From assembly GCF_019396345.1 (NCBI RefSeq), contig NZ_JAHKRM010000028.1, positions 7,498 through 71,497 on the forward strand: a stretch of 64,000 nucleotides of DNA, read 5' to 3'. Shown piece after piece: positions 34,101 to 51,050 of the stretch (position 1 is its first letter; each line of letters begins with the position of its first letter). The notes beneath the pieces are model-generated. The model ran no database searches. It was not told the origin of the DNA and was given only the letters and a program-made list of their open reading frames with translations. The translations under genes and the position numbers were made by a program. Source of the DNA: Nonomuraea guangzhouensis. Lineage in GTDB: Bacteria > Actinomycetota > Actinomycetes > Streptosporangiales > Streptosporangiaceae.

Positions 34101-34643
34101 GCGGAGGCCCGCGAGGTGCTGGGCCGCGTCTCCGAGGCCGACAGCAGGCTCGGCCGCCGCGCTCTGGTCCTGCTCGGCCAGACCTATCACGACGAGGACG
34201 CGGGCCGGGCCCGCGAGCTGTACCTGCGCGTCGTGGAGCTGGCGGGTGAGGCCGGCGGCATGGCGACGGTGGTCGCCAAGATGTACCTGGGGTCGCTGGC
34301 CAAGCGGGAGCGTGACTGGCCCGAGGCGCTGCGCTGGTACCAGCAGGTGATCGACTCGGGCGACGAGAACCAGGCGCCCCTGGCGGCCGCGCACCTGGGC
34401 GAGCTGGCGTACTGGCTGGGCGACCGCGGCGCGGCGGTGCGCTACTACGAGCTCACCCTGGCCACCGATACGCGCCAGCCCGACCTGGTGGGCGAGGCCG
34501 CGTACCGGCTGGGCGAGATCAAGCACGGCGACGGCGACCTGGACCTGGCCAGGAAGCACCTGCGGCGGGCGGTCGAATCGGGCGACGAAGGCTTCGCCGC
34601 CAAGGCCCGGACCCTGCTCGCCAAGCTCGGCGAGGGAGCCTGA
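28200..34643 (+). CDS. giant tetratricopeptide-repeat protein (2147 aa)
   Basis: A very large, apparently cytoplasmic scaffold with no signal peptide or membrane segment. It is built almost entirely of degenerate TPR-type helical repeats with recurring GD.AGA and (G/D)(D/H)P turns. Examples are GDLDGAAEALARVRRGDHP and DVDALEAAARRAVGSGD. Residues about 1090-1450 and 1543-1900 are clearly related to each other, each carrying elements such as YGDPEEVA/FGTPEQVA, VDHPAAL and GDTDAAV/GDTDAAA. They are separated by a Pro/Glu/Asp-rich linker (about 1455-1540). The ATG has AGGGG upstream. It seems monocistronic, in an 88-bp gap after the peptide operon and convergent with recQ (10 bp apart). No enzymatic domain is visible and the partners are unknown. 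Confidence 0.9.
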   Translation: MSSWPERLETAIGMWRQGDLDGAAAVVREVVVAGDATVAPEASHLLGRLLQDRGDLEGAGAAHRSVIASGHPVFAQRSAISLGLLLVDAEQWALACRPLRLAATGADADLSVMAEVALVRVLQRLGDLDGAAEALARVRRGDHPGLAELTEGLEDTRWPDDGGERERQAWDAFEAITGLLDEDDGSNDEIILTGLNHMLAQGMPELCSQAAFRLYSIYADRSEFEDCRRVMEHAIAVGDPAERGLAEKLLGAVLFDLGELVEARDAYRRAAEDHRPEIRLDALIQESKFTRELGDEEGARAVLWRVVESGHPRFALEARACLGQVYSEAGEVDEAVACWRVVLGGDSDFHQGAVACLGLLLHGLDADDPRRAEVVALLGQAAELDDSDVAFQARMTLAYAEGAVRGPDEALEQAVDDCDAALELIRADDLAQARALLRGVVDADIPVQSARACAMLATLEYGEGDVEQAYELLEYVADGDDYVNGFAAAVNRHLIAEIGAPHPALTAESGGGAPHPMLAALVGYQRLGREAGIAAYQECAGHPDPAVSALAKSMLAQVYVSLGVPRSQGIELLDEAATAGDPLALSHAAVISSIIRDGDEDEEVVELLRRAHAHGHPALAPWVAHALGTALEGQDDADGALAAYEAVREHPGLGAEAEAKLLHILETRRDLPGVAAVHERIMARGDRLRAPRSAWLLGFTRVRMDDFEAARQAFDQVDTDHPELAEDGVFARGLLGHDFTGASAVLAAIGERGDDHRSFMNTWLALESAHAWQRAGDGTAADAALSLAIACGHPERVQEAALYLGALRNDGGDLAGAAEAWAVAADGDNEHNAILGAKSLGEALASLGDLAGAATAYRRALDALDPDDDDYVRLLDVLTGILVAAGRVSEARDLQVSATGDGPHVHLVIGAALEEAGDLDAAGAQYGQAIDSGADTEVAATAGVMLARLLGRRGEAGRAAEAAARAIASFEGLAAAGDASSGENIPLIAYELGGYLAEAGDPEGARTAYERAATADDPSIRLPAKERLGTASPDELAMLRLHENDRAGALELFTQVYGSPEIAELHITLYEGNLTEVRPLLERAPTAHREEAVDLVLRAALKRLRADADGARELYELVLEFGTPEQVAIACDNFGLAYDLAGDTDAAADTLTLGAAVDHPAALSCLRRLLGVLALQGDVDALEAAARRAVGSGDRETVTLGVWTLGDVAKARGDLAGAAAGYREAIEGADPDTVPYIRVELGQTLHQLGDTTAAHREMEAVLTCDNPGQVLLAGMHLGTWLAEDGRLAGAAEAFGAAAAAGLRHPAPDEHARQGHGMALNNLAAVAYEAAEAGDHTVAVRALHLGAAGGAHEDAVELAKEHASAAAERGDLDAVRTYYKGAAAFPPDGDPRLLIKLAELLTEHGSPAEARTLLEPLTTADDPRVRLAATTHLLPLLKEMGEEYLALELAARAAGHPSPEPAPETGQPQDPEDSAPEAPLITTYPEPDIVVPAGLPGSTEADEGDERDELFSILEAYGDEEGPSTLDSMRWLMRNQSGTPTAGAAGRQIIRAARESVEDDPAEARAMLELVVEYGDPEEVATAYDDLGDIAWYHDDDMEAAVAAYRKGSEVDHPAALIPLRSLMLAQLQVKDFDGVAATAQTAVTSGDTETMAAGYWMWGDARRHRGDTDAAVRLYRQAINLGSAELTPRIRVDLARTLRDRGEAETARAELGGAADSGDPDVRAQAGNLLGKWAFEDGDLAASAEAFGRVAAIEVRPDDPDLLSELVEMAADNVIVVANRAFTEGDHQVAVRALALAARAGEAQEALKVAGRRATELGEAGDRANAVLYIESAVGFLPDPDPDLEIQLADLYAAAGEVAEARARYERLVDHPDAHVRLVAGGRLVPLLRVAGDTAGLADVTQRLTDDSAEADLDPGAQALLTSVLGLMQNEHGDSEGALRTLRQAAESGEPAALVTLGQALVDAGEVAEAREVLGRVSEADSRLGRRALVLLGQTYHDEDAGRARELYLRVVELAGEAGGMATVVAKMYLGSLAKRERDWPEALRWYQQVIDSGDENQAPLAAAHLGELAYWLGDRGAAVRYYELTLATDTRQPDLVGEAAYRLGEIKHGDGDLDLARKHLRRAVESGDEGFAAKARTLLAKLGEGA

Positions 34644-36759: not shown

Positions 36760-37166
36760 CGCTCGGCCCCGGCGTAGGTCCAGCCACCCTCGTGCCGGAC
36801 GAAGCGGCTGTGCTCTTCCATGCTTCCCGGCTCGCCGTCGTCGGTGTAGTGGGCACGGAAGCGGACGGTGCCCTCGGTGTGGAAGACGCTGCCCCCGGTG
36901 GTCCCGAGGATCTCCAGGCGGGTCCAGCGCGTCGCCCGGTCCAGGTCTAGGCGCGGCGGGCGGGCCGCCGGATGCCAGGTGCGCAGGAGATATCCGGCAT
37001 CGCCGACGCTGAAGGCGCTGAACCGTGACCGCATGAGCGCCTCGGCCGTGGGCGCGGCGGCCAGGCCGCGGTGCAACCGCCCGCAGCACTCCTGGTAGGT
37101 CGCCGGCAGCCCGCACGGGCACGGGGCGGAGGCAGGTTTCGCGTCACGTCGGGGCACGCCTCTCAT
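36756..37166 (-). CDS. YchJ-like SEC-C motif protein (UPF0225)
   Basis: A 136-residue protein. An N-terminal SEC-C zinc motif (CPCGLPATYQECCGRLH) is followed by an NTF2-like fold with ALMRSRFSAF, YLLRTWHP and SRFVRHEGGW. These features define the YchJ/UPF0225 family, whose role is not established. The ATG at 37166 is the likely start. Its stop overlaps the DUF6221 start. Confidence 0.88.
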   Translation of the reverse strand: MRGVPRRDAKPASAPCPCGLPATYQECCGRLHRGLAAAPTAEALMRSRFSAFSVGDAGYLLRTWHPAARPPRLDLDRATRWTRLEILGTTGGSVFHTEGTVRFRAHYTDDGEPGSMEEHSRFVRHEGGWTYAGAER

Positions 37167-37187
37167 TCTGCCTGCTGCCGAGGACCT

Positions 37188-37877
37188 TCAGCGCCCGCGG
37201 AATATCAGCTGGAACTGCCGGCGCGGCCACTTGCGGCGGAACGCCACCCGCTCGTTGACCTGAGGAAAGGGCTCGTCCGGTACGGGGACCCCGAGGAACG
37301 CGCACAGCGGCCCCCAGCCCTCCCGTACGTCGAAGACCAGCAGCCGCCCGGCCGGGATCGCCGCCCGCACCTCGGCGACGTGCCGTTCGAAGACCTCCAC
37401 GACGTACGCGGGGTCGTCGATGCGGCCGTCGAAGATCCGGTCCATGACGGTCGCCCTGGCCATGCGCGGGTAGAGGGCGAAGTCCGGCACCCGGCGCGCC
37501 ACCAGCCACCGGATGATCCGGCGACGCACCGGCAACGGGCGGCGTTCGGCCAGGGCGCTGGCGAAGATGGTGTCGCTGACGCTGTCGTACCACCGCTGCG
37601 GGTCACGGACGGTGAGGATGACCTTCGCCTCGGGATAGTGCTCGGCCAGCTCCCGCCAGTAGGAGGCGGCGGGCCAGTCCACCGCCGACTGGAAGCCGGC
37701 GAACATCTCGTCCCAGTCGCGGGCGCGGCCCTCGCCGACGTCGAGCCACTGGCGGACCCGGAACGGCTCCGCGATGACCACGGACATGTGGTAGCAGGGG
37801 CCGTACCCCAGCATGTCCAGCGCCACCCTCAGCGACGCCGTGCCCGTCCTGCCGAAACCCGCACCGATCACCTTCAC
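37188..37877 (-). CDS. sulfotransferase-family protein
   Basis: A 229-residue P-loop enzyme of the sulfotransferase superfamily. The PAPS 5'-phosphosulfate loop is GAGFGRTGTASLRVALDMLG, and the 3'-phosphate region VILTVRDPQRWYDSVSDT carries the conserved Arg and Ser. The C-terminus VNERVAFRR fits the same family. GTG 37877 is chosen because GGGAG precedes it and the P-loop follows at once. It is divergent from the ligase cluster with a 112-bp shared upstream region, so it may act on that cluster's product; this link is inference only. Confidence 0.85.
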   Translation of the reverse strand: MKVIGAGFGRTGTASLRVALDMLGYGPCYHMSVVIAEPFRVRQWLDVGEGRARDWDEMFAGFQSAVDWPAASYWRELAEHYPEAKVILTVRDPQRWYDSVSDTIFASALAERRPLPVRRRIIRWLVARRVPDFALYPRMARATVMDRIFDGRIDDPAYVVEVFERHVAEVRAAIPAGRLLVFDVREGWGPLCAFLGVPVPDEPFPQVNERVAFRRKWPRRQFQLIFRGR

Positions 37878-37989
37878 ATCGCGCTCCCGTCTCTGATCGG
37901 TCTCTGATGTGCGCTGCCTAACGTCTCGGTGGGACGACAAGCCGGTTATATGACCAATAAACGATCACTGCAAGGGTGAGGAGCCGATC

Positions 37990-39498
37990 ATGTTGTTCCC
38001 GCATCCCCTTCTCGACGCGCTGCGGGACTCGCCCGGGAGCCCGGCCTTCGAGCACGGTCCCCGGACCGTGTCGCGCGGTGAGCTGCTGGACCTGATCCGG
38101 CGGCTGGCGGGCGCGCTCGCCCAGGCCGGGCTGGGGCCCGGGCGGGGCGTCGCCGTCCGGACCGGTGTCTCACCGGAGGCGTTCGCCGCGCAGCTGGCCG
38201 CGCACGCGCTCGGCTGCCGCGTCGTGGGCGTCCGCCCCGGGTACCCGGCCGGGCAGCTCGCCCACGTGCTCGGCATGCAGGTCGACGCCCTCCTGGTCGA
38301 CGGGTCGACCGCGACGCCCGGACTGCTCACGGCCGCCGGGCCGCTTCCCGTGCTCCCGTTGGAGGAACTGCTGGCCCGCCCCGACGACGGCCGGCCCCTC
38401 ATCGTCACGGCCCGTCCGGACGACGTGGCCGCCCTGACCTTCACCAGCGGCAGCACCGGGCGGCCCAAGGGCTGCGCGATCACCTACCGCGCGCTGAGCG
38501 AGCATTGGGCGTGGCAGCCCCGCCGCTGGGGCCCGGTCGCGGCCGAACTCGCCGCCGCCTTCGAGCGCTACCTGCTGTTCGGCACCCTGGCCAGCATGGT
38601 CGTCCTGGAGTTCCTGGCGCCGTGCCTGCTGGGCGGCGGCACGGCGGTGATCCCCGAGGACGACGGGCGGCCCGTCTTCCCGTACGCGATCGAGCGCTAC
38701 CGGATCACCGGCTCCATCATCACCGTGCCCCGGCTGTACCAGATGCTCGGCCTGCTGCGCGATGAGGCGGTGGACGTCGGCAGCCTGCGCGCGCTGATGG
38801 TCTCCGGGTCGCCGATCAGCCCGTCCCGGCTGGCCGCCGCGGCGCAGCGGCTCGGTCCGGTGATCTACCAGGGGTACGGCCAGACCGAGGCGGGCAACAT
38901 CGCGATGCTCACGCCCGGCGACATCGCCCACGGCCCGGCCCGCCTGCTGGCCTCGGTCGGCCGGCCGCATCCGGGGGTCGAGATCAGCGTCTGGGACGAG
39001 GAGGACCGGGAGGTGGCCACGGGCGGGACCGGCGAGATCCACGTACGCAGCCCGTACCTGATGTCCGGCTACTGGGGTCAGCCGGAGGAGACCCGCGACA
39101 CGCTGCGCGACGGCTGGCTGCGCACCCGCGACCTCGGCCACCTGGACGAGGAGGGCTACCTGTACCTGGTCGGCCGGACCCGTGATGTGATCATGGTCAA
39201 CGCGATGGTGGTGTACGCGGGGCCGATCGAGCGGGTGCTGACCGGTCATCCCGACGTGGAGGAGGCGTACGTGGCCGGGGCGCCGGACGAGCTGACCGGG
39301 GAGGCCGTCCACGCCTTCGTGGTGCCGGCCGCCGGGCGCGACCCGGACCGCGACGCGCTGACCGCCCTGGTCCGCGCCGAACTCGGTGACGACAGCGTCC
39401 CCCGGACGATCACGGTGGTGTCCGCCGTCCCGGTCGCCGCGAGCGGCAAACCGGACAAGCGCGCCCTGCTGGACCGGCACGGCGGGCGGATGTTCTGA
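37990..39498 (+). CDS. AMP-forming acyl/aryl ligase (ANL superfamily)
   Basis: A 502-residue adenylating enzyme that activates a carboxylic acid as acyl-AMP and probably passes it to CoA or an amine. The motifs are P-loop LTFTSGSTGRPKGC (about residue 150), YGQTEAG, DGWLRTRDLG, GRTRDVIMVNAMVVY and the C-terminal catalytic Lys in VAASGKPDKRALL. GAGGAG precedes the ATG. No carrier or condensation domain follows, so it is stand-alone. It is the first gene of a compact five-gene run with three redox enzymes and an antiporter. The substrate is not inferable with confidence. Confidence 0.9.
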   Translation: MLFPHPLLDALRDSPGSPAFEHGPRTVSRGELLDLIRRLAGALAQAGLGPGRGVAVRTGVSPEAFAAQLAAHALGCRVVGVRPGYPAGQLAHVLGMQVDALLVDGSTATPGLLTAAGPLPVLPLEELLARPDDGRPLIVTARPDDVAALTFTSGSTGRPKGCAITYRALSEHWAWQPRRWGPVAAELAAAFERYLLFGTLASMVVLEFLAPCLLGGGTAVIPEDDGRPVFPYAIERYRITGSIITVPRLYQMLGLLRDEAVDVGSLRALMVSGSPISPSRLAAAAQRLGPVIYQGYGQTEAGNIAMLTPGDIAHGPARLLASVGRPHPGVEISVWDEEDREVATGGTGEIHVRSPYLMSGYWGQPEETRDTLRDGWLRTRDLGHLDEEGYLYLVGRTRDVIMVNAMVVYAGPIERVLTGHPDVEEAYVAGAPDELTGEAVHAFVVPAAGRDPDRDALTALVRAELGDDSVPRTITVVSAVPVAASGKPDKRALLDRHGGRMF

Positions 39499-39568
39499 GC
39501 ATTTTCTGAGAATTGCCAGCCAACACTGCTGTTGTCCGTTCAACCACATCGCTGTGACGGAGGCATCC

Positions 39569-41137
39569 GTGCCGGACAACGCCCTCGACTATCTGGTGAT
39601 CGGCGCCGGCCCGGCCGGGCTGCAGCTGGGATATTTCCTGGAAAAGGCGGGGCGGTCGTACCTGATCCTCGAAGCCGGTCCCACGCCGGGCATGTTCTTC
39701 CGGACCTTCCCCCGCCATCGCACGCTCATCTCGATCAACAAGAAATACACCGGGACCTCCGACCCGGAGCTCAACCTCCGGATGGACTGGAACTCCCTGC
39801 TGTCGGACGACCAGGACCTGCTCTTCACCCGCTACAGCGACCGGTACTTCCCCGCCGCCGACGACATGGTCCGCTACCTCGCCGACTTCGCCGCCGCCTG
39901 GGGCCTGCGGATCGTCTACGACGCCCGCGCCGCCCACATCACCCGCGCGCCCGGCGAGGGCCCCTTCCAGGTGACCGACGAGCGCGGCCGGACGTACGAG
40001 GCGAAGCGCCTGATCGTCGCGACGGGCGTCAGCCGACCCAACATCCCGGAGATTCCGGGCATCGAGACGGCCGAGCCCTACGGCACCGCCGCCACCGACC
40101 CGTCCGGCTTCGTCAACCAGCGGGTGCTGGTCATCGGCAAGGGCAACTCGGCCTTCGAGACGGCCGACAACCTGGTCGAGACCGCCGCGGTGATCCACGT
40201 CGCGGGGCCGAACTCCGTACGGATGGCGTGGCGCACCCACTTCGTCGGGCATCTGCGCGCGGTCAACAACAACTTCCTCGACACCTACCAGCTCAAGTCC
40301 CAGAACGCGGTGCTGGACGGGTCGGTCAAGCGGATCGAGCAGCAGGCCGACGGCTCGTACCTGGTGACGGTGAGCTTCGCCCGCGCCGACGAGGTCACCA
40401 AGGACATCCCGTACGACCGGGTGATCGTCTGCACCGGTTTCCGGTTCGACGCCTCGATCTTCGATGACGGGTGCCGGCCGGAGCTGATGATCCAGGACAG
40501 GTTCCCGGCGCTCACCCCCGCCTACGAGTCGGTCAGCGTGCCCGGCCTCCACTTCGCCGGGACGCTGACGCAGTCCCGCGACTTCAAGCGCGGCACCAGC
40601 GGCTTCATCCACGGCTTCCGCTACGGCACGCGCTCGCTGCACCGCATCCTGGAGAACAGGTACCACGGCGTCCCGTGGCCGGCCCGCGAGCTCGCGGCCA
40701 CCCCGGAGGCCATGGCGGCGGCGGTGCTCGAACGGGTCAACCGCTCCTCGGCGCTGTGGCAGCAGTTCGGCCTGATGGCCGACGTCATCGTCCCCGACGG
40801 CCGGGGCGGGGCGCGCTACCTGGAGGAGCTGCCGGTCGATCTGGAGGGCCCGCCGATCGGTGACGGCGGCCACTACGCGATCACGCTGGAGTACGGCCCC
40901 GAACACGACAAGGTGGACCCCTTCGACATCGCGGTCGGCCGGATCCGGCAGAGCGACTCCGCGCGCGCCCACGAGGGCCACTACCTGCACCCGGTGGTAC
41001 GGCACCATCGGCCCGGCACGCCGCCCGCCGTCCACCACATCACCGAGAACCTGGAGAACGAGTGGACCTCCCCCGAGGTGCACCTCGAGCCGCTCCGGGC
41101 CTTCTTCGCCCGCCAGGCCGCCTCGGTACCGGCGTGA
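39569..41137 (+). CDS. FAD/NAD(P)-dependent oxidoreductase, flavin-monooxygenase-like
   Basis: A 522-residue two-dinucleotide-binding protein. The FAD loop VIGAGPAGLQLGYFLEKAG is at the N-terminus, the NAD(P) loop VLVIGKGNSAFETADNL near residue 187, and the ATG-type stretches LIVATGVSRPN and VIVCTGFRFD complete the fold. A C-terminal extension of about 140 residues rich in His/Pro is unassigned. The layout resembles FOXRED2-type and flavin monooxygenase proteins. GTG 39569 is chosen because GGAGG lies 5 nt upstream. The next gene overlaps its stop (TGATG). Confidence 0.85.
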   Translation: MPDNALDYLVIGAGPAGLQLGYFLEKAGRSYLILEAGPTPGMFFRTFPRHRTLISINKKYTGTSDPELNLRMDWNSLLSDDQDLLFTRYSDRYFPAADDMVRYLADFAAAWGLRIVYDARAAHITRAPGEGPFQVTDERGRTYEAKRLIVATGVSRPNIPEIPGIETAEPYGTAATDPSGFVNQRVLVIGKGNSAFETADNLVETAAVIHVAGPNSVRMAWRTHFVGHLRAVNNNFLDTYQLKSQNAVLDGSVKRIEQQADGSYLVTVSFARADEVTKDIPYDRVIVCTGFRFDASIFDDGCRPELMIQDRFPALTPAYESVSVPGLHFAGTLTQSRDFKRGTSGFIHGFRYGTRSLHRILENRYHGVPWPARELAATPEAMAAAVLERVNRSSALWQQFGLMADVIVPDGRGGARYLEELPVDLEGPPIGDGGHYAITLEYGPEHDKVDPFDIAVGRIRQSDSARAHEGHYLHPVVRHHRPGTPPAVHHITENLENEWTSPEVHLEPLRAFFARQAASVPA

Positions 41138-42174
41138 TGGAATCCCTGGGCGAGTTCGAGGCCGCGGCCCGCTCTCGCCTCGATCCCGCCTATTACGACT
41201 ACTTCGCCGGCGGGGCCGGTGACGAGGTCACGCTGCGGGCCAACGAGGCGGCCTTCGACCGGCTCGCACTGCTGCCGCGGGTGCTGCGCGGCGCCGGGAA
41301 GCTGCAGCTCGACGTCACCCTGCTGGGCAGCCACGCGGCCATGCCCGTGCTGGTGGCGCCGACCGCCTTCCACCGGCTCGCCGACCCCGAGGGCGAACGG
41401 GCCACGGCGCGCGCGGCCAGGACCGCCGAGACGATCATGATCGTCAGCATGGCGTCCACGGTCGCCGTCGAGGACGTGGCCGCGGCGGCGCCCGGGGCCG
41501 AGCTCTGGTTCCAGCTCTACATCCAGCCGGACCCGGCCTTCACCGAGACGCTCGTCCGGCGGGCCGAGGCGGCCGGTTGCAAGGCGCTGGTCGTCACGGT
41601 GGACTCCCCCACCCTGGGGGCGCGGGCCCGGGACCGGCGCAACGGCTTCCACGACCTGCCCGAGGGCATGTACTGCGAGAACCTGCGCGACGGCGCGCGG
41701 GTGCGGCCGATCGTCATGTCACCGGAGCTCTCCTGGGCACACATCGACCAGCTCAGGGACATGACGGCGCTGCCGATCGCGCTCAAGGGCGTCGCGCACC
41801 CCGCCGACGCGCGCCTGGCGCTCGACCACGGCGTCGCGGCGCTGCTGGTCTCCAACCACGGCGGGCGGCAGCTCGACACGGTCCCGGCGGCCATCGACCT
41901 GCTGCCGGACATCGTGAGCGCCGTCGGCGGAGCCATCCCCGTGCTGCTGGACGGCGGTGTCCGGCGGGGCACCGACGTGCTGAAGGCGCTGGCGCTCGGC
42001 GCCGCGGCGGTCGCGGTCGGCCGTCCGGTGATCTGGGGCCTGGCGGCGGACGGCGAGCGGGGCGCGGGCCGCGTGCTCAGCCTGCTGCGCTCGGAGGTGG
42101 AGCGGGCGCTCACGCTGTGCGGCTGCGCGTCGATCGACGAGCTCGAACCGGGGATGGTGCGACGCGCATGCTGA
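41137..42174 (+). CDS. FMN-dependent alpha-hydroxy-acid oxidase
   Basis: A 345-residue FMN barrel enzyme. DYFAGGAGDEVTLRANEAAF opens the family domain, PVLVAPTAFHRLA binds FMN, and LVVTVDSPTLGARARDRRNG and the active-site VSNHGGRQLDTVP with His241 and Arg244 are intact. This is a shorter, bacterial-oxidase or hydroxymandelate-oxidase-like form, distinct from the LldD-like protein at 12517. ATG 41137 overlaps the upstream stop. In this cluster it would oxidise a 2-hydroxy acid made or activated by neighbours. Confidence 0.9.
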   Translation: MESLGEFEAAARSRLDPAYYDYFAGGAGDEVTLRANEAAFDRLALLPRVLRGAGKLQLDVTLLGSHAAMPVLVAPTAFHRLADPEGERATARAARTAETIMIVSMASTVAVEDVAAAAPGAELWFQLYIQPDPAFTETLVRRAEAAGCKALVVTVDSPTLGARARDRRNGFHDLPEGMYCENLRDGARVRPIVMSPELSWAHIDQLRDMTALPIALKGVAHPADARLALDHGVAALLVSNHGGRQLDTVPAAIDLLPDIVSAVGGAIPVLLDGGVRRGTDVLKALALGAAAVAVGRPVIWGLAADGERGAGRVLSLLRSEVERALTLCGCASIDELEPGMVRRAC

Positions 42175-43529
42175 CCCTGGTGGCCGGGGCCCTGGCCGTC
42201 ATCGCCGTGCTGAGCCTGCCGTGGTGGCTGCCCGGCCGGGTCGTGGCGCTGCGGGTACGCGTCTTCAACCGGGTCAACGGGGACGAGGGCATCCCCGTGC
42301 CCGGCGACCTGGTCGGCGTCGAGCGGTTCAGGGAGGTCTACTCCCATCCGGCGGCCGGTGGCCGGAGCAAGGGCGCCGCCCTGTCGGACCTGTTCTGGTA
42401 CTGGCTGGCGCCCGGCCCCGAGCTGCACCAGGAGCATCTGGAGGCGGGGGAACGGTATGACGCCGTCGCCCGGGCCACGCGCGGCATCCTGTCCCTGCCG
42501 CGTACGGAGGCTGAGGAGCTGACCCGCCGCTGCGTCGCGCGGACGCTGAGGGACGCGCGCGGGCTGGTCCGGCTGCGCGATCTGATGATGCCGCTCTGGG
42601 CGGAGTTCTCCTACGAGCTCGTCTTCGGCAGGCGGTGCCCGTGGGCGGCCCGCGACCTGATCATCGGCAACGCGAACGACGTCGTCACCGCGCTCAAGGG
42701 CTGCGGGCTGCGGCACATGGACCGGCGCGACCGGCTCACCGCGTATCTGATGGACCAGTTGCCGCGGGTGCGGCGCCCGCTGCCCGAGGGCTTGTCGGCC
42801 AGGGAGCAGGCGCTGTACCTGCAAGGGGCCTTCTTCAACACCGCGGTCGTCCAGTTGTCGGAGGCCATGGCCCACCTGCTGATGGTCCTCGCCCAGCACC
42901 CGGACGTACAGGCCAGGGCACTGACGAGCGGCCCCCGCTACCTCGACCAGGTGATCTCGGAGACGCTGCGGCTCTACCCGCTCTTCGGCGTCGCCCACCG
43001 CGTCACCACCGGCGACATCCCGCTCGACGAGCAGACGGCGATCCCGGCCGGCTCGGTGCTGTGCTTCAACTACCCGGAGTTCCACCGCGCGGGCTTCACC
43101 GACCCCGGCCGCTTCGACCCGGGCCGATTCGACCATGAACGCAGCCATCCCGACCACGCCTCGGCCCGGGAGCTCAACCACATCCCGTTCGGCGTCGCGG
43201 CCAACCGGCCCTGCCCGGCCTGGCGGCTGGCGCCGATCGCCATGCGGGTCGCGGCGGAGGAGATCCTGCGCCTGTACGCCCTGGACTCCACCGCCGCCCA
43301 CACCCGGTCCCTGCCCAACCGGGGCCCGTGCCTGCTCACCCCCCGGTACGCCCCCAGGAGCGCCACCCACCGGGCGCTGCTGCTGTTCGTGCGGTTCCGT
43401 GACCGGTGGGAGGACGTCTGGCGCAGCCTCGTCCAGCTCGTCCTCGGCAGCTACATGGTCTGGGACGCGCGCCGGCAGCGGCTGTGTGAGCGCTATTTCG
43501 CGGAGGACGGCCAGCCGGTCTCCCATTGA
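42168..43529 (+). CDS. membrane-anchored, non-canonical cytochrome P450
   Basis: A 453-residue P450-fold protein. The heme loop FGVAANRPCPAWRLAP carries Cys349, and ExxR is in ISETLRLYPLF. Two features are odd. The N-terminus begins with a hydrophobic helix (MLTLVAGALAVIAVLSLPWW), like a microsomal anchor, which is rare in bacteria. The I-helix position of AGxDT/E-T reads TAVVQL (about residues 225-230), so the proton-relay acid-alcohol pair is missing. Oxygen activation may be altered, or peroxide-dependent. ATG 42168 overlaps the upstream gene by 7 bp, which supports coupling. Confidence 0.88.
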   Translation: MLTLVAGALAVIAVLSLPWWLPGRVVALRVRVFNRVNGDEGIPVPGDLVGVERFREVYSHPAAGGRSKGAALSDLFWYWLAPGPELHQEHLEAGERYDAVARATRGILSLPRTEAEELTRRCVARTLRDARGLVRLRDLMMPLWAEFSYELVFGRRCPWAARDLIIGNANDVVTALKGCGLRHMDRRDRLTAYLMDQLPRVRRPLPEGLSAREQALYLQGAFFNTAVVQLSEAMAHLLMVLAQHPDVQARALTSGPRYLDQVISETLRLYPLFGVAHRVTTGDIPLDEQTAIPAGSVLCFNYPEFHRAGFTDPGRFDPGRFDHERSHPDHASARELNHIPFGVAANRPCPAWRLAPIAMRVAAEEILRLYALDSTAAHTRSLPNRGPCLLTPRYAPRSATHRALLLFVRFRDRWEDVWRSLVQLVLGSYMVWDARRQRLCERYFAEDGQPVSH

Positions 43530-43557
43530 TCGTCCGGATAACGAGCGGAGAAATGGA

Positions 43558-44880
43558 ATGCCCACGATGGCCCTGGTCGCCGCCGGTGACCCGAACCTCG
43601 AACTGATCCTCAAGGTGCTGCCCGCCCTGGTCGTCATCCTGCTGGTCGCCGGCGTCTGCGGCCGGCTGGCGCTGATGGTGATGCAGCCGCGGGTGCTCGG
43701 CGAGATGGTGGCCGGCGTCCTGCTCGGCCCCACGCTGTTCGGCTGGCTGTTCCCGGAGGCCCAGGCCGCCCTGTTCCCCAAGGAGGTCAGACCGGTCCTG
43801 TACGTGCTGAGCACCATCGGCCTGACCTTGTACATGTTCCTGGTCGGCGCCGGGCTGGACCACAGCGCGCGGTCACCGGGCGAGGTCCGCCGGGGTTCGG
43901 TCCTGGCCGCCTCGGGCATCCTCCCCTCCCTGGTCCTGGGCGCCGGCAGCGGCCTGGTCCTGTACGACCTGCTCTCCCGCCCGGACATCAGCCGGTGGGA
44001 GTTCGCCCTGTTCGTCGGCGGCGCGCTGTCGCTGACCGCCTTCCCCATGCTGGCCAGAATCCTGTACGAGCGGAAGCTGGAGAACTCCCCGCTCGGCCGG
44101 CTCACGCTGATCGCGGCCTCCATCGACGACGCCTTGGCCTGGTGCATCCTCGCCGTGCTGTCGGCGATCCACCTCGGCACCGGCTCCGGTGGCGCCCTGC
44201 GCACCATCGGCCTGTCCGCGCTGTTCGCGGTGGTGATGCTGGCAGTGGTCCGCCCGCTGCTGCGGCCCCTGGGCGCGAGCTTCGTGCGCACCGGTCAGCT
44301 CGGCCCCGGCGCCATGTACGTCGTCATCCTCGTGCCGCTCACCGCCGGCTGGCTCACCGACTGGATCGGCGTGTACGCCGTCTTCGGCGGCTTCCTCGCC
44401 GGGCTGACCATGCCCCGCGATCCGGCCTTCCGCAAGGTGCTGCACGGCCGCATGATGGACGTCGTCTCGACGCTGCTGCTGCCGGTCTTCTTCACGTTCT
44501 CGGGGCTGAACACCCATCTCAACGGCATCGCCGGTGGCACCATGCTGCTGGCGTTCGCGCTGATCCTGGCGGCGGGCTTCAGCGGGAAGTACTTCGGCTG
44601 CGCGCTGGCGATGAGGGGGATGGGGTTCGGCTGGCGCGAGTCGTACGCGGTGGGCGCGCTCATGAACGCGCGGGGGCTGATGATCCTCATCTTCATCAAC
44701 ATCGGCCTGGCACAGGGCATGATCACGCAGGAGCTGTTCGCCATGCTGGTGCTCGTGGCCGTGCTCACGACCGCGGGGGCCCTGCCGCTGTACAAGCTGG
44801 CGCTGCCGGAACGCCTCGAACAGGCCAGGAGAACCGAACCCGAAGAGCCACGCCCCTTGAAGGAGGCGACGTCGGCCTGA
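43558..44880 (+). CDS. cation/proton antiporter (CPA2/KefB-type)
   Basis: A 440-residue membrane protein with about 12 helices. VLGEMVAGVLLGPTLFGW and FLVGAGLDHS are CPA2 hallmarks, and the ion-site helix IAASIDDALAWCILAVL has the paired Asp. There is no C-terminal TrkA-N domain. The ATG at 43558 has GGAG upstream and lies 28 bp after the P450 stop, so it is probably the last gene of that operon. It may export protons or cations, or serve self-protection; transport specificity is not readable. Confidence 0.88.
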   Translation: MPTMALVAAGDPNLELILKVLPALVVILLVAGVCGRLALMVMQPRVLGEMVAGVLLGPTLFGWLFPEAQAALFPKEVRPVLYVLSTIGLTLYMFLVGAGLDHSARSPGEVRRGSVLAASGILPSLVLGAGSGLVLYDLLSRPDISRWEFALFVGGALSLTAFPMLARILYERKLENSPLGRLTLIAASIDDALAWCILAVLSAIHLGTGSGGALRTIGLSALFAVVMLAVVRPLLRPLGASFVRTGQLGPGAMYVVILVPLTAGWLTDWIGVYAVFGGFLAGLTMPRDPAFRKVLHGRMMDVVSTLLLPVFFTFSGLNTHLNGIAGGTMLLAFALILAAGFSGKYFGCALAMRGMGFGWRESYAVGALMNARGLMILIFINIGLAQGMITQELFAMLVLVAVLTTAGALPLYKLALPERLEQARRTEPEEPRPLKEATSA

Positions 44881-44884
44881 TCTT

Positions 44885-44898
44885 CATTTCACGAAATG
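44885..44898. promoter_or_regulatory. dyad upstream of the two-component genes
   Basis: CATTTC-AC-GAAATG lies 4 bp after the antiporter stop and 55 bp before the response-regulator start. It is a candidate operator, possibly autoregulatory; no T-run makes it a poor terminator. Confidence 0.4.
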
Positions 44899-44952
44899 TC
44901 AATGCCTGTCGGGACCCTGGTAATTCTGCGGCAGTGATGCCACGGTGGGTCC

Positions 44953-45642
44953 GTGGCTGCGACATCGGGAACAGCCGGCTCACCCTCCCGTCGGCTGTTA
45001 CTCGTCGAAGATGACCGCGAGCTCGGGGGCATGTTGGTAGACCTGTTCACCGACGAGGGATACACGGTCGACCTGGCCTTGGAGGGGCAGCGCGGCCTGC
45101 ACCTGGGACTGAGCCGCGCTTACGACGCCATGATCCTCGACCGGGGCCTGCCGGTGGTCGACGGCATCGACCTGCTGCGGCGGCTGCGCCGGCAGGCCGT
45201 CACCGTGCCGGTGCTCCTGCTGACCGCCTTCGGCACGGTCGCCGACCGGGTCGCCGGGCTGGACGCGGGCGCCGAGGACTACCTGGTCAAGCCGTTCGAG
45301 ATCGACGAGCTGCTGGCCAGGGTGCGCGCGCTGCACCGCAGGAACCTGGACCAGGCCGGGCTGCTGCCCGTCGGCGCGGGCCGGCTGGATCCGGCGGCCC
45401 ACACCGTACGGCTGCCGACCGGCGAGGAGGTCACGCTGTCCGGCCAGGAGTGCCGGCTGCTGCACGCGCTGGCGATCCGGCCGCGGCAGGTGCACACGCG
45501 GGCCTCGCTGCGGCAGCGGGTGTTCGACGGCGCCAGCACCGACGCGATCGTGGACACCTACGTCTACTATCTGCGCGGCAAGCTGGGACCGGGCATCGTC
45601 AGCACCGTACGGGGTGTGGGCTACCGCCTGGGTGAGCTGTGA
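44953..45642 (+). CDS. response regulator, OmpR/PhoB type
   Basis: A 229-residue two-domain regulator. The receiver carries the acidic pocket (VEDD), the phosphoacceptor Asp63 in DAMILDRGLPVVDG, LLLTAF with the conserved Thr, and Lys113 in DYLVKPFE. The C-terminal winged helix ends DTYVYYLRGKLGPGIVSTVR and GVGYRLG. GTG 44953 is used but the true start could be slightly downstream. Its stop overlaps the kinase start, a standard cognate pair. Confidence 0.94.
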   Translation: MAATSGTAGSPSRRLLLVEDDRELGGMLVDLFTDEGYTVDLALEGQRGLHLGLSRAYDAMILDRGLPVVDGIDLLRRLRRQAVTVPVLLLTAFGTVADRVAGLDAGAEDYLVKPFEIDELLARVRALHRRNLDQAGLLPVGAGRLDPAAHTVRLPTGEEVTLSGQECRLLHALAIRPRQVHTRASLRQRVFDGASTDAIVDTYVYYLRGKLGPGIVSTVRGVGYRLGEL

Positions 45643-46919
45643 GGGGGCGGGAGGCGGCCGATCCGGAGCGACGGCTGCTGATCGGGGCCCGCCGCCGGAT
45701 CACCGTACAGGTGGCGGGCGCGATCTCCTTGGTGCTCGCCCTGTTCGCAGCGGTGGTCTACGGCGTCACCGTGAACGACCAGCACGACTCCGCGCGGCGT
45801 GACCTGGCCGCCGCGACGCGGAACGGCTCCGTCACCCACCCTCCCCCCTGCGTCTGGCTGTTCGAGCTGCGCGACGGCACCGTACAGAGCTCTCCGGGGG
45901 CACCGGAGGCGCTCCCCCTGGACAGCGCGCTGTACCTGGCCGCCGGCAGCCCGCCGCAGGTCGGCCAGGTCGAGCTGGCCGGGCAGAGCTATCTCGTCCG
46001 CACCGAGCGGCACGGTGACGTGGCGGTCCAGGCGGTGATGGACCTTCGCTACCAGGCCGCCGAACGTCATCGGCTGCTCCGCACGCTCGGCGCCGCCGAA
46101 CTCGCCGGGCTGCTGGCCGCGCTGCTGATCGGCCAGGTCCTCGCCCGCCGGGCGATCGCGCCGCTGGGCGAGGCCCTGGCCCGCCAGCGCAGGTTCGCCG
46201 CCGACGTCAGCCACGAGCTGCGCACCCCGCTGACCCGCCTGCACACCCGCGCCCAGCTCGTCGCCCGCCAGCTGCGGCGCGGAACCGACCAGATCCTGGT
46301 CATCGACGAGGTCGACCAGCTGGTCACCGGCACCCGGCAACTGGGCGAGGTGGTCGAGGACCTGCTGGTGTCGGCCCAGTTCAAGCAGCTGCGCCGGCCG
46401 TTCGTCCCGGTCGACCTGGCCGCGCTGGCCGAGGAGCAGGCCGTCGCCGAGGCGGCGCGCGCCGCGGCGCACGGCGTGACGATCGAAGTACGCCGCCAGG
46501 GGCTCGACGAGCCCATCGTGCGCGGGGCCCAGTCCGCGCTGCGCCGGGTGATCGCCGCGCTGCTCGACAACGCGCTCGGCCATACGAGCATGGGGGGTCA
46601 TATCTGGGTGACGGTCTCCGGCGGCTCGGAGGTGGTGGAGCTCAAGGTGCGGGACGACGGCGTGGGCCTGGATCCGCACGACTCCGAGCGGCTGTTCACC
46701 CGGTTCGTGGGCCGGGGCTTCGGGCTGGGGCTGGCCCTCGTACGGGAAGTGGTGGACGGGCACGGCGGGACGATCACGGCGGACGGGCGGCCGGGCGCCG
46801 GAGCGGTGTTCACCGTCCGCCTCCCGGCGGACCCCGCCGCCCCGCACCACCCGCCGCCCAGAAGCGAGCCTGCCAACCGCTCTGACCGCTCTGACCGCGA
46901 GCCTGAGCGGCGATTTTGA
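45639..46919 (+). CDS. sensor histidine kinase
   Basis: A 426-residue membrane kinase. A first helix (about 22-44), a short extracytoplasmic loop with one Cys, a second helix (about 148-168), then the H-box FAADVSHELRTPLTRL with phosphorylated His192. The ATPase has N-box LLDNALGH, G1 DDGVGL and G2 GRGFGLGLALV. The C-terminal tail is Arg/Ser-rich. GTG 45639 overlaps the regulator stop. It lies directly downstream of the antiporter, which may be a target; the sensory signal is unknown. Confidence 0.94.
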   Translation: MRGREAADPERRLLIGARRRITVQVAGAISLVLALFAAVVYGVTVNDQHDSARRDLAAATRNGSVTHPPPCVWLFELRDGTVQSSPGAPEALPLDSALYLAAGSPPQVGQVELAGQSYLVRTERHGDVAVQAVMDLRYQAAERHRLLRTLGAAELAGLLAALLIGQVLARRAIAPLGEALARQRRFAADVSHELRTPLTRLHTRAQLVARQLRRGTDQILVIDEVDQLVTGTRQLGEVVEDLLVSAQFKQLRRPFVPVDLAALAEEQAVAEAARAAAHGVTIEVRRQGLDEPIVRGAQSALRRVIAALLDNALGHTSMGGHIWVTVSGGSEVVELKVRDDGVGLDPHDSERLFTRFVGRGFGLGLALVREVVDGHGGTITADGRPGAGAVFTVRLPADPAAPHHPPPRSEPANRSDRSDREPERRF

Positions 46920-47016
46920 TCCCCGATATTCCGACTCACGAATATTCCGGATCGTATTGACCGCGAGGAATCCTCGACTTGACTTCCGAGCGAGCAGTCG
47001 GCTACAGGAGGTCACC
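46920..47016. other. spacer before the decayed DUF6879 locus
   Basis: It contains a 16-bp-period direct repeat ATATTCCG (46926-46933 and 46942-46949) and CGAGG-AAT-CCTCG. AGGAGG lies just before ATG 47017, a fossil of a real start. No gene is present. Confidence 0.5.
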
Positions 47017-47480
47017 ATGAACCTGGTCAAGATCGCGGGCGGGATGACTGCCCGACCGTCTTCGCGATGCCCGACAGCGGCATGGTGGCCGTTCAGGGCT
47101 ACACCGCTTCGACGGCTTCCAGACCTCGGCCTGGCGGTTGGAGACTCGCGCGGTGTACTCCATGCCGGGCGAGCAGGAGGAGTTCACCTCCTTCCTGGCC
47201 ACGGGACGGCTGCACATCCCAGATGACGACGCGTGGCTGACCCGGGTGCGTGGCTTCAGGACTTCAGGATTGCGGACCTCACCGACATTTCCATCCAGGA
47301 ATCCCGGATTTCGATTTCTGGATGTTCGACGAAAAGCATGTGGTTCTCATGGAGTATGACCCGAACGGCATCCAGACACGACGCGAACTACTGGACCGTC
47401 CAGACATCGCCCGTTTCATCGGATACCGGGATATAGCCATGGGCCACTCGGTACCTTTCGCTGAATATACGGGTAACGTC
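47017..47480 (+). pseudogene. decayed small-protein/DUF6879 gene pair
   Basis: Fragments in three frames form recognisable protein pieces. ATG 47017 starts MNLVKIAGG; a one-base loss near 47041-47046 moves the continuation DDCPTVFAMPDSGMVAVQGY to another frame. Then come SAWRLETRAVYSMPGEQEEF and DDDAWLTRVR, and after further shifts DFDFWMFDEKHVVLMEYDP and AMGHSVPFAEYTG. The latter pieces match the DUF6879 pattern. Frameshifts plus the missing centre (the part between WLTRVR and FWMFD is much too short) indicate a dead locus. Such pairs usually accompany XRE-type regulators; none is seen here. Confidence 0.75.
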
Positions 47481-47636: not shown

Positions 47637-48110
47637 TCAACCGACACGTTCGGCGGCGGGTTCCGATCGGGAGGCCGGCGGGTGGGCGAGGGAGTCGACA
47701 AGGCGAGTCAGCAGGTCCTTGAGCAGGTCCTGTTCGCCGCTCGCGGTGAGCAGCCGGCTCATGCCGGCCTCCACCTGCCTGCTGAGCTGCCGGTGGAGTC
47801 CGCGGCCACGCGGAGTGAGGTAGGCGCGAATGCGGCGCCGGTCGATGTCGTCGACCCGGCGATAGACCAGACCGTCGTCGGCGAGCTGGTCCATGAGCTT
47901 GGTCAGGGTGCCCGGCGGGAGGAAGGCGTGCTCGGCGACCTCGGTCATGTGGTGGCCGGTGCCGTCGGCGAGCAGGGTGATCACCCGCCAGGCGTCCAGC
48001 GAGCAGCCCTCGGCGTTGAGGATGGCGGCGAGGCGCCGGCCGAGAAGCCGTTCGGCCTGCGTCAGCAGATGGATCAGATCCGGCGGCTGACGCGTACCCG
48101 GAACAGCCAT
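47637..48110 (-). CDS. MarR-family transcriptional regulator
   Basis: A 157-residue winged-helix regulator: LIHLLTQAERLLGRRLAAIL, CSLDAWRVITLLADG, then the recognition region LPPGTLTKLMDQLADDGLV, the wing DDIDRRRIRAYLT and the dimerisation C-terminus. ATG 48110 has a perfect AAGGAGG upstream. It is divergent from the AmiC-like gene; with no other regulator nearby it may control that gene and the transporter. Confidence 0.93.
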   Translation of the reverse strand: MAVPGTRQPPDLIHLLTQAERLLGRRLAAILNAEGCSLDAWRVITLLADGTGHHMTEVAEHAFLPPGTLTKLMDQLADDGLVYRRVDDIDRRRIRAYLTPRGRGLHRQLSRQVEAGMSRLLTASGEQDLLKDLLTRLVDSLAHPPASRSEPAAERVG

Positions 48111-48207
48111 GACCCTCCTTGATCGGGGAAGTTTTCTCATGCTACAGACCGGTTGCAGCTTCCGGAATGGTGTGGAATTCATGCCCTTGACCAGGAAGCA
48201 TGGCGTC
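48111..48207. promoter_or_regulatory. divergent promoter region, MarR / AmiC-like gene
   Basis: An imperfect dyad CTACAG-N5-TTGCAG lies at 48142-48158. MarR sites are typically imperfect inverted repeats between divergent genes, so this is a possible operator, at low confidence. Confidence 0.35.
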
Positions 48208-49332
48208 ATGCCCCGGTTTGACAGGCAGGTCCCCGGACCGCCGGACCCGTCGCCGCGTGGTCTCGCCGATGTGGTCGACCTCAGCGGCGAGACGGTGAAC
48301 GTGGCGCTGGTGGTACCGATGCGGGGCCCCTCCGGGATGTTCGGGCCGGCCTGCGAGCTGTGCGCGGAGTTGGCCGCTGACGAGGTGAACCGGGCAGGGG
48401 GCGTGCTGGGGCGCGAGCTCCGTCTGGTGCCGGTCGACGGCGGCGCCCCGCCGGATCGGGTGGCGGCCGAGGTGGAGGCGCTGGTGTCGCTGGGCGCGGT
48501 GCAGGGGGTCACCGGCTGGCATATCTCCTCGGTACGCCAGGCCGTCGCGCCGCGCGTCGCCCACCGGGTGCCGTACGTCTACACGGCGCTGTACGAAGGC
48601 GGCGAGCGTACCGACGGCGTGTTCATGACCAGCGAGACCCCGCTCGACCAGTTGTACCCGGCCATGCGGCTGCTGGGACGGGAACGGGGGCTGCGGCGCT
48701 GGTTCGTGGTGGGCAACGACTACGTCTGGCCACGCGGTACCGCGCGGGCCGCCCACCGGTACGCGGCGGAGTGCGGGGCGGTCATCTGCGGCGAGTCCTA
48801 CCTGCCGCTGGGCACCCACGATTTCGGCGAGGTGCTGCGGCACATCGAGCGGAGCGAGGGCGACGCGGTGCTGATGCTGCTGGTCGGCAGTGACGCGGTG
48901 CGTTTCAACCGGGCGTTCGCCCGCAGCGGGCTGGACCAGCGGTGCCTGCGGCTGAGCACGCTGATGGACGAGAGCATGCTGCTGGCCAGCGGCTCCTCGG
49001 CGACCAGCGGGCTGTACAGCACCGCGGGCTTCTTCGCCTCCCTGGCGACTTCGGAGAATCTGGATTTCCATGGACGGTACGCGCGCAGTTTCGGGGTGGA
49101 CGCGCCGCCGCTGGGCAGTCTCGGCGAGTCCTGCTACGAAGGAGTGCTTCTGCTGTCGGCGCTCATCGAGCGGGCCGGAACCCTGGATGTGCGGACAATC
49201 GTGGGCCACGCCGACGCGGTCTCCTACGAAGGTCCGCGCGGATTGCTGCGAATGCGGCGCCGGCACGTGCGCCAGCGCATCTACCTGGCCGAGGCACAAG
49301 GGCTGGAGTTCGACGTGGTGGCCCAGTTATAA
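48208..49332 (+). CDS. UrtA/AmiC-like ligand-binding protein without signal peptide
   Basis: A 374-residue type I periplasmic-binding fold protein (Peripla_BP_5/AmiC group). NVALVVPMRGPSGMFGPACE opens it, and VVGNDYVWPRGTARAAHRYA closely parallels [20 protein letters not shown] of the UrtA encoded at 49722. No signal peptide or lipobox is present from any plausible start, so it should be cytosolic. AmiC from the amidase operon is the known precedent, a sensor of short amides. Start options are ATG 48208 (AGGAAG upstream), 48181 and 48109; I use 48208. It lies immediately upstream of the urt operon's leader, hence a ligand-sensing role is inferred. Confidence 0.75.
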   Translation: MPRFDRQVPGPPDPSPRGLADVVDLSGETVNVALVVPMRGPSGMFGPACELCAELAADEVNRAGGVLGRELRLVPVDGGAPPDRVAAEVEALVSLGAVQGVTGWHISSVRQAVAPRVAHRVPYVYTALYEGGERTDGVFMTSETPLDQLYPAMRLLGRERGLRRWFVVGNDYVWPRGTARAAHRYAAECGAVICGESYLPLGTHDFGEVLRHIERSEGDAVLMLLVGSDAVRFNRAFARSGLDQRCLRLSTLMDESMLLASGSSATSGLYSTAGFFASLATSENLDFHGRYARSFGVDAPPLGSLGESCYEGVLLLSALIERAGTLDVRTIVGHADAVSYEGPRGLLRMRRRHVRQRIYLAEAQGLEFDVVAQL

Positions 49333-49368
49333 GCGGGCTTGACAGCGTACACGCCACACCCCAAGATA

Positions 49369-50969: not shown

Positions 50970-50980
50970 CGGCCGACCAC

Positions 50981-51014: not shown

Positions 51015-51050
51015 CACAGCCCGCCCCCTCACGATCCGGAGGTTCGACCT

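Follow-up and report, generated by a model that had tools for sequence, protein, structure and literature searches.

A Conserved Carrier-Free Gene Cluster with an FAD-FMN-P450 Core in Nonomuraea guangzhouensis

Do the closely packed ligase, redox and transporter genes of the soil actinomycete Nonomuraea guangzhouensis form one pathway and, if so, is it one that has been described? They lie in a 64,000 nt stretch of contig NZ_JAHKRM010000028.1 (the window), for which a sequence-only reading had proposed an undescribed small-molecule pathway, without carrier proteins, that activates a carboxylic acid and oxidises it repeatedly. We consider it probable that the genes constitute a carrier-free, two-component-regulated specialised-metabolite cluster, which is probably co-transcribed. 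The proposal of an undescribed pathway holds insofar as the set is carrier-free and co-conserved, and a literature search of CC-licensed PubMed Central, on the gene set and on natural pairs of a P450 and a hydroxy-acid oxidase, retrieved no matching cluster. The repeated oxidation is not supported by the comparison of genomes, as the set is modular and the FMN oxidase is absent from four of 81 otherwise intact clusters.

Gene Order and Extent

The unit comprises eight genes (37188–46919). The first, for a sulfotransferase (ST), is on the minus strand and is followed on the plus strand by genes for an adenylate-forming ligase (LIG), an FAD flavoprotein (FAD), an FMN-dependent alpha-hydroxy-acid oxidase (FMN), a P450, a cation:proton antiporter (ANTI), a response regulator (RR) and a sensor histidine kinase (HK), in that order. 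The six families from ST to ANTI had all been named from the sequence and were recovered by Pfam, including the sulfotransferase facing the ligase-redox set (Sulfotransfer_4) and the antiporter, which begins 28 bp after the P450 gene (Na_H_Exchanger). The interval had been closed at 44880, which is too short; the RR (44953–45642) and HK (45639–46919) genes are conserved with the cluster, and the unit reaches 46919 because this two-component system belongs to it. The LIG, FAD, FMN and P450 genes had also been described as nearly fused. This is accurate for FAD/FMN and FMN/P450, the only enzyme genes that overlap (1 nt at 41137 and 7 nt at 42168–42174), but not for the ligase gene, which stops at 39498 and is separated by 70 bp from the preferred FAD start, GTG 39569 (longer starts are possible).

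Gaps inside the unit are 70, 28 and 72 bp, together with a divergent ST/LIG intergenic region of 112 bp (37878–37989, no strand assigned), a natural place for promoters. Such small gaps leave little space for a RiPP precursor. A sigma-70 consensus scan of 37000–47300 returned no promoter sites, and the four terminator-like sites all fall within the FAD gene, but both results are uninformative at this G+C content. Matches to the carrier protein family PF00550 (E 0.001) number 91 in the host genome and none on the window's contig, and Pfam detected no carrier, PKS or NRPS domain in the eight cluster proteins, in agreement with the sequence-only reading.

Conservation across Genomes

Co-occurrence was counted at 81 loci, consisting of the best 80 of 367 P450 relatives plus the window, a set biased to close relatives. 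Core genes were located by tblastn (E 1e-20) within 6 kb of the P450 gene, while neighbouring genes were called by a G+C heuristic, with annotation covering part of them. FMN was found near the P450 at 76 loci, FAD at 70 and both at 66, followed by RR (64), HK (62), LIG (59), ANTI (58) and ST (44), counts that are lowered because a contig end leaves less than 6 kb on one side in 14 of the 80. The complete eight-gene order is present at 29 of the 81 loci, and the FMN and P450 genes overlap in 59 of 68 measured adjacent pairs. Pairwise identities of the P450 track those of FAD, FMN, LIG, ANTI, RR and HK (Spearman 0.79–0.85) and of ST (0.75); the correlations of ST with ANTI, RR and HK are weaker (0.45–0.53).

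The cluster core occurs in many actinomycete genera and in single representatives of a few other phyla, and the FAD-FMN-P450 core is also found in Paraburkholderia, Acidobacteriota and Melainabacteria. In the tree, phylum labels cluster no more than shuffled labels do. An even sample of Actinomycetota contained the P450 in 6 of 396 genomes, the host genome among them, and within the genus its occurrence is strain-variable, a full-length copy being present in 24 of 54 genomes. With the full order retained at 29 loci and with co-conservation across genera and the core present in a few other phyla, the answer to whether these genes are co-conserved in other genomes is a strong yes.

Beyond the core, the content of the loci varies. 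ST, LIG and ANTI are each absent near many cores; the left flank is variable, with RecQ and YchJ orthologues adjoining the cluster at three of 81 loci; an MFS transporter follows the P450 gene at six; and DUF6282 or CoA-transferase III genes adjoin the core in some lineages. Among annotated neighbours, no further family is common to more than a minority of loci. Since FMN is gone from four otherwise intact clusters, and ST, LIG and ANTI from the surroundings of many cores, the set is modular and does not represent one fixed route, and the minimal set may do something simpler.

The P450 and the FMN Oxidase

The P450 gene (42168–43529, plus strand; p450 Pfam, E 1.3e-17) specifies an atypical member of its family, with a hydrophobic N-terminal helix, an extra C-terminal helix and the heme loop FGVAANRPCPA, which contains Cys349. 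Its model (pTM 0.88) has the P450 fold (Z 31.6, rmsd 2.9 Å over 339 aligned residues), and this fold, the proximal Cys349 and the ExxR motif place it in the P450 superfamily. ExxR is present in all 81 P450s and in 107 of 110 in an enlarged set in which some loci are present twice. The P450 heme-loop consensus is FxxGx[HR]xCxG, which occurs in none of the 81; instead, all 81 carry [FY]GxxxNRxCPA, as do all 110 of the enlarged set, some loci being counted twice. Three alignments of proteins picked by eye for spread, the window included, covered 21 of 29 P450s (A1), 51 of 78 proteins (A2) and 42 of 68 (A3).

The FMN oxidase (41137–42174, plus strand; 345 aa; FMN_dh, E 1.4e-124) is a more conventional protein. 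Its top PDB match is a tandem lactate oxidase chain, 7f22 (392 bits in total, 196 per domain), ahead of HAO3 (309), HAO1 (303), glycolate oxidase (302) and 4-hydroxymandelate oxidase (262). At what we take to be the catalytic positions, by analogy with glycolate oxidase, Asp156, Lys217, His241 and Arg244 are invariant (76/76), which identifies it as a member of the alpha-hydroxy-acid oxidases, while Tyr128 (69/76) and Tyr20 (67/76) are frequent and the Arg163 site is variable (Arg in 55/76). Identity with mycofactocin MftD was rejected, because the score of 240 bits falls short of the cut-off of 471. Because four sister clusters are without it, the enzyme is not always required. A whole-genome search (E 1e-40) of six genomes of the FMN-less type (four being the same strains) detected no FMN homologue in three, and in the other three the homologues found elsewhere are only 49–52% identical. 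The cluster of Nonomuraea gerenzanensis, matched in a plasmid collection on a stretch without annotation, is also of the FMN-less kind.

These two proteins invite the question of where the P450 obtains its oxidant. It could be a peroxygenase, the FMN oxidase generating its H2O2 from an alpha-hydroxy acid that the P450 itself forms, an arrangement suited to two genes that adjoin and mostly overlap. To our knowledge, cascades of a P450 and an alpha-hydroxyacid oxidase have so far been man-made only. An engineered one with internal H2O2 recycling is presented in the part of PMC5768024 available to us. The heme loop is changed close to the cysteine, and the residue preceding the I-helix Thr (stretch QGAFFNTAVVQ) is Asn in 72 of the 81 P450s, Thr in seven and another residue in two, but never Asp or Glu. 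No cluster-borne redox partner was found, because a ferredoxin motif scan within 7 kb gave only six matches in six loci, all of which visual inspection put down to out-of-frame noise, although a divergent ferredoxin could escape such a scan. On the other hand, CYP152 peroxygenases carry Arg-Pro in place of the I-helix acid-alcohol pair, according to the available part of PMC5818669, and none of the 81 P450s has an Arg in this stretch, so that membership of CYP152 was rejected. Foldseek lists CYP152 chains among the top matches, but the fold does not decide this question because they score level with CYP3A4. The I-helix Thr is also retained, the four FMN-less clusters keep their P450, and the FAD enzyme or a reductase elsewhere in the genome could supply electrons. 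Taken together, we consider a peroxide-fed pair unlikely.

The FAD Flavoprotein

The FAD gene (39569–41137, plus strand; Pyr_redox_3, E 4.7e-47) specifies a flavoprotein that binds FAD and NAD(P), measures about 522 aa and is extended at its C-terminus. Its model (pTM 0.79, mean pLDDT 75; poor at residues 215–246 and 338–348) is predicted to adopt the FMO/disulfide-reductase fold over residues 3–366 (Z 23.6, rmsd 3.3 Å, 313 aligned), with the best matches spanning about residues 3–369 and little beyond. FxGxxxH is the motif of flavin-containing and Baeyer-Villiger monooxygenases; it is present in one of 70 FAD homologues and the Baeyer-Villiger fingerprint in none, placing the enzyme outside both groups.

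The layout, with fold matches confined to the first part of the chain, presumably resembles that of animal ERFAD/FOXRED2. The FAD enzyme might then be an ERFAD-type halogenase or a new oxygenase, and the product a halogenated aryl or pyrrole amide similar to sponge oroidin. The oroidin pathway uses a CoA ligase, P450s and the ERFAD-like brominase OroF (available part of PMC12833800), to which the ligase, P450 and presumed ERFAD-like enzyme of the cluster run parallel. According to the same partial source, however, OroF activity belongs to one branch of the animal family and the reaction of ERFAD itself is uncharacterised. We give this reading little credence.

Ligase, Sulfotransferase, Antiporter and Two-Component System

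LIG (37990–39498, plus strand; AMP-binding Pfam, E 6.3e-62) belongs to the ANL superfamily. Its PDB matches are 6sq8 (275 bits), 6h1b (272), 8pyy (243) and FadD8 (199), so that among solved structures it is closest in sequence to the McbA/ShABS amide bond synthetases. The C-terminal catalytic Lys is kept in 86 of 88 aligned rows, the other two being gapped. In McbA, D201 is the catalytic Asp, and 4-chlorobenzoyl-CoA ligase has His207 at this site (PMC10804368). In LIG the residue is Ser202, and 58 of 59 ligases have Ser and one Pro, so neither the McbA-type Asp nor the His of CoA ligases is present. For want of the catalytic Asp, we did not file LIG as an amide bond synthetase; among annotated neighbour genes, no amine-forming gene is conserved next to LIG.

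The sulfotransferase gene (37188–37877, minus strand; Sulfotransfer_4, E 1.1e-64) has a preferred start at GTG 37877 over TTG 37940, and the nearest solved chains of its product are 9kf1 (221 bits) and SgdX2 (8y9p, 206 bits). RTGT, which we take to be the phosphosulfate-binding loop motif, is found in 43 of 44 homologues, in keeping with a PAPS sulfotransferase. ANTI (43558–44880, plus strand; Na_H_Exchanger, E 2.8e-43) is a CPA2 antiporter that matches TIGR00932 with an E value of 6.8e-32, under the curated cut-off. RR is an OmpR-type regulator (Response_reg and Trans_reg_C) and HK carries HATPase_c and HisKA domains; both are on the plus strand, and their genes overlap by 4 nt.

A Linked Tyrosine-Ammonia-Lyase-Like Gene

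A second locus of the host genome groups a tyrosine-ammonia-lyase-like gene with paralogues of FAD and the ligase. Among solved structures the lyase is closest to 2o6y, whose His-Leu pair it retains. A lyase gene adjoins the core at six other loci, and direct search placed it near three of the 81 P450 loci. It is found in eight of 54 genomes of the genus, all among the 24 with a full-length P450 (hypergeometric 7e-4, uncorrected for relatedness), and it was not found in the remaining 16 genomes with the cluster. Since the lyase shares a locus with FAD and LIG paralogues, and lies beside the core at six others, p-coumarate derived from tyrosine is a plausible building block.

Proposed Pathway and Alternatives

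In the specialised-metabolite pathway that we infer, LIG would adenylate a small acid, probably an aryl carboxylic acid, and hand it to an amine, an alcohol or CoA. Some genomes, at least, might obtain this acid or a second building block from tyrosine via the lyase. The oxidative core would consist of the FAD flavoprotein, the FMN oxidase and the P450, which is probably membrane-anchored; the P450 or the FAD enzyme would most likely hydroxylate the acid, and the FMN oxidase may convert an alpha-hydroxy acid to the alpha-keto acid with release of H2O2. In lineages that carry ST, a hydroxyl would be sulfonated. ANTI (an MFS protein in some lineages) probably serves in export of the product or tolerance of the producer to it.

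Acid ligases and alpha-hydroxy-acid oxidases also occur in degradation routes, and the genes might be an operon that breaks down or detoxifies an aromatic or hydroxy acid. A two-component system and a transporter would suit substrate sensing and export, and the DUF6282 or CoA-transferase III neighbours of some lineages point the same way. However, the sulfotransferase at more than half of the loci suits product tailoring, and occurrence within the genus is strain-variable. Nor does a ring-cleavage or beta-oxidation set accompany the core among annotated neighbours, since no additional family extends beyond a minority of loci. We judge a catabolic role improbable. That unrelated neighbours have come together by chance would account for the modular presence of ST, LIG and ANTI and for the varying flanks, but is scarcely credible given the retained order, short overlaps, correlated divergence and occurrence beyond the phylum.

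A more far-reaching version of the specialised-metabolite reading would be a new carrier-free class spread over four phyla. Its P450 subfamily, distinguished by the rebuilt heme loop, would be fed H2O2 by the overlapping FMN oxidase, while an ERFAD-like flavoprotein would carry out another oxygenation or a halogenation; Ser-type ANL coupling (with p-coumarate in some lineages) and a sulfotransferase finish would come after. This is a long shot, but if true it would be the natural counterpart of the engineered cascade and would provide a function for a bacterial ERFAD-like enzyme. Automated detection is difficult for gene clusters that lack the hallmarks of PKS, NRPS or RiPP pathways, and the compact FAD-FMN-P450 core offers a search handle. 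Three of the enzymes are off-consensus (the P450 heme loop, the Ser-type ligase and the unassigned C-terminal part of the FAD enzyme). One solved product would help assign the entire family and would open the oxidant supply of the P450 to direct testing.

Comparison with Known Systems

The oroidin (oro) bundle is likewise carrier-free, with a ligase, P450s and an ERFAD-like flavoprotein (a likeness presumed for the cluster enzyme), but its genes are animal, its building blocks are lysine and proline, and the available part of PMC12833800 makes no mention of an FMN alpha-hydroxy-acid oxidase, antiporter or sulfotransferase. McbA and ShABS, of the marinacarboline type, share with LIG the ANL superfamily (275 and 243 bits) and the C-terminal Lys; their Asp201 is Ser here, and LIG is linked to the FAD-FMN-P450 core. 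SgdX2, the second-closest solved relative of ST, is from the sungeidine pathway, which makes an enediyne-type polyketide, whereas the contig of the cluster is without a carrier protein. Pathways to p-coumarate products of the bagremycin and saccharomicin type combine a tyrosine ammonia-lyase with an amide-synthetase-like ligase and have no assembly line; we know of no FAD-FMN-P450 core or antiporter pairing in them, and here the lyase in most cases either lies at a second locus or went undetected. Finally, the cascade of a CYP152 enzyme and an alpha-hydroxyacid oxidase, as given in the available part of PMC5768024, unites the same two enzyme classes and has an altered heme-loop region, whereas the pair described here lacks the I-helix Arg-Pro and is a natural one, known from its genes.

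Gene organization and setting

The cluster is carried by a 13.7 Mb genome and, in the preferred gene models, begins with a minus-strand sulfotransferase gene (ST, 37188–37877). It continues on the plus strand with genes for an ANL ligase (LIG, 37990–39498), a flavoprotein (FAD, 39569–41137), an FMN alpha-hydroxy-acid oxidase (FMN, 41137–42174), a P450 (42168–43529), a CPA2 antiporter (ANTI, 43558–44880), a response regulator (RR, 44953–45642) and a histidine kinase (HK, 45639–46919). The genes named in the sequence-only reading are real, and their families were confirmed by Pfam. Its description of ligase and redox genes nearly fused by overlaps holds for FAD/FMN (1 nt) and FMN/P450 (7 nt), but LIG is free of overlap and separated from FAD by a 70-bp gap. 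RR and HK overlap by 4 nt. Elsewhere in the window, 28200–34643 encodes a 2147-aa protein in which numerous TPR-like repeats are matched throughout, just upstream of a RecQ-family helicase. Genes of an ABC importer of the branched-chain type, together with two periplasmic-binding proteins (Peripla_BP_5/6), occupy 48109–53928.

Conservation and limits of the cluster

The cluster is well conserved. P450 matches occur in 30 of 98 genomes around the window genome, and a full-length P450 in 24 of 54 same-genus genomes. A scan of named genomes gave 367 P450 relatives, and the best 80 were analyzed with the window (81 loci). Within 6 kb of these P450 genes were FMN (76 loci), FAD (70; both in 66), RR (64), HK (62), LIG (59), ANTI (58) and ST (44), with a contig end less than 6 kb from the P450 in 14 of the 80 loci behind the counts. 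The exact eight-gene order is found in 29 of the 81, and the same order minus ST in 11 more. In 59 of the 68 pairs measured, the FMN and P450 genes overlap, usually by 7 nt, and identities of the cluster genes co-vary across loci, most poorly for ST against ANTI, RR and HK. Since orthologues of the flanking RecQ and YchJ genes adjoin the cluster in only 3/81 loci, ST was taken as the left edge; genes beyond HK vary from genus to genus. The cluster is carrier-free and most likely biosynthetic. It had been proposed as possibly undescribed, and no description was found in the CC-licensed PubMed Central literature searched.

Variant forms

Among the same 81 loci (best 80 of 367, plus the window), the smallest recurring set is FAD-FMN-P450 (e.g., L146 and L137). 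Five loci (L126, L131, L134, L135 and L141) show the order FMN-ST-P450-LIG and have no antiporter, while in six (L118, L121, L142, L145, L147 and L153) an MFS transporter gene lies 3' of the P450. A DUF6282 gene, possibly specifying an extra pathway step, adjoins the core in five (L140, by Pfam; L122, L124, L142 and L145, as tblastn homologues). It lies downstream of the P450 and in Actinomadura and Actinoallomurus accompanies the FMN-P450 core. Four clusters (L079, L105, L113 and L120) are without FMN, which argues against a strict pathway. Whole-genome searches (E 1e-40) of six genomes with FMN-less clusters detected no FMN relative in three, and only relatives of 49–52% identity, sited elsewhere, in the other three. 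In Herbidospora (L127, L129 and L138) a sulfotransferase gene lies on each side of the cluster, two in all, and LIG is only 56–58% identical to that of the window, against 74–76% for FAD.

A second locus and a probable tyrosine ammonia-lyase

Contig C84 of the same genome (locus L070, 6657–11195) holds paralogues of LIG and FAD next to a gene for an aromatic amino acid lyase, and is likely to be linked to the cluster pathway. The Pfam family of the lyase was established on homologues in L075 and L154. The lyase is present in 8/54 same-genus genomes, and every one of the eight has the full-length P450 as well (chance of coincidence 7e-4, uncorrected for relatedness). It adjoins a FAD-FMN-P450-ANTI core in Saccharothrix and Lentzea (L154, L155 and L156) and in three genomes belonging to two further families (L164, L165 and L166); five of these six loci have extra FAD and ligase genes, and L156 has one of each. 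Among solved structures the lyase comes closest to 2o6y (247 bits), which we take to be the Rhodobacter sphaeroides tyrosine ammonia-lyase, and it retains a His-Leu pair that is Phe-Leu in the 2o78 chain, presumably the H89F variant of that enzyme. From this linkage, likeness and residue pair, it is reasonable to propose that part of the cluster family draws on p-coumarate made from tyrosine. The route is not general, because the lyase is near only 3/81 P450 loci (best 80 of 367, plus the window) and went undetected in 16 of the 24 same-genus genomes with the cluster.

Distribution and P450 phylogeny

An even sample of Actinomycetota had the P450 in 6 of 396 genomes, the window genome among them. 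Within an otherwise actinomycete tree, Paraburkholderia and Acidobacteriota copies group together, and a Melainabacteria copy groups with an Amycolatopsis bin. These placements fit horizontal transfer but do not prove it, since metagenome-type assemblies are the source of the copies from Acidobacteriota, Melainabacteria and Amycolatopsis, the tree has some long branches, and clustering by phylum label does not exceed that of shuffled labels.

The enzymes and their relation to known systems

The P450 was modeled confidently (pTM 0.88) with a P450 fold, a predicted hydrophobic helix at the N terminus and, at the C terminus, a long additional helix (400–437). All 81 members (best 80 of 367, plus the window) carry [FY]GxxxNRxCPA as their heme loop, which exceeds the textbook consensus by one residue. 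None of them matches that consensus, and none has Asp or Glu just before the I-helix Thr. Variants in a second cluster form (L064, L067 and L068) do not match the usual K-helix ExxR. Membership of CYP152 was ruled out: those peroxygenases are described in excerpts of PMC5818669 as having Arg-Pro in place of the I-helix pair, and this is absent from the cluster family. The conserved, overlapping FMN-P450 pair is of interest as a candidate peroxide system because a P450 peroxygenase and an alpha-hydroxyacid oxidase have been engineered into a cascade that recycles H2O2 internally, according to excerpts of PMC5768024.

In FMN the four catalytic residues are invariant and two Tyr are mostly kept. 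A tandem lactate-oxidase chain ranks first among PDB matches by the sum of two domains (196 bits each), and hydroxyacid oxidases 1-3 together with glycolate oxidase lead the single-domain matches. FAD matches FMOs weakly in sequence, and its model, of middling confidence, suggests an FMO/disulfide-reductase fold over about residues 3–369. We presume a strong resemblance to animal ERFAD/FOXRED2. Such a likeness matters because the ERFAD-like OroF is, in excerpts of PMC12833800, a brominase of the sponge oroidin bundle.

LIG may form an amide, ester or thioester. Its closest solved chains are 6sq8/6h1b (which we take to be McbA) and 8ppp/8pyx/8pyy (presumably ShABS), followed by FadD8. Asp201 of McbA occupies the site of His207 in 4-chlorobenzoyl-CoA ligase, according to excerpts of PMC10804368 and PMC6282839. 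LIG thus lies near to these ligases in sequence but with the key residue of neither the McbA nor the 4-chlorobenzoyl-CoA ligase type, since 58 of 59 cluster ligases have Ser at this position. Overall, the cluster brings together known enzyme families in new forms and is not a new kind of system.
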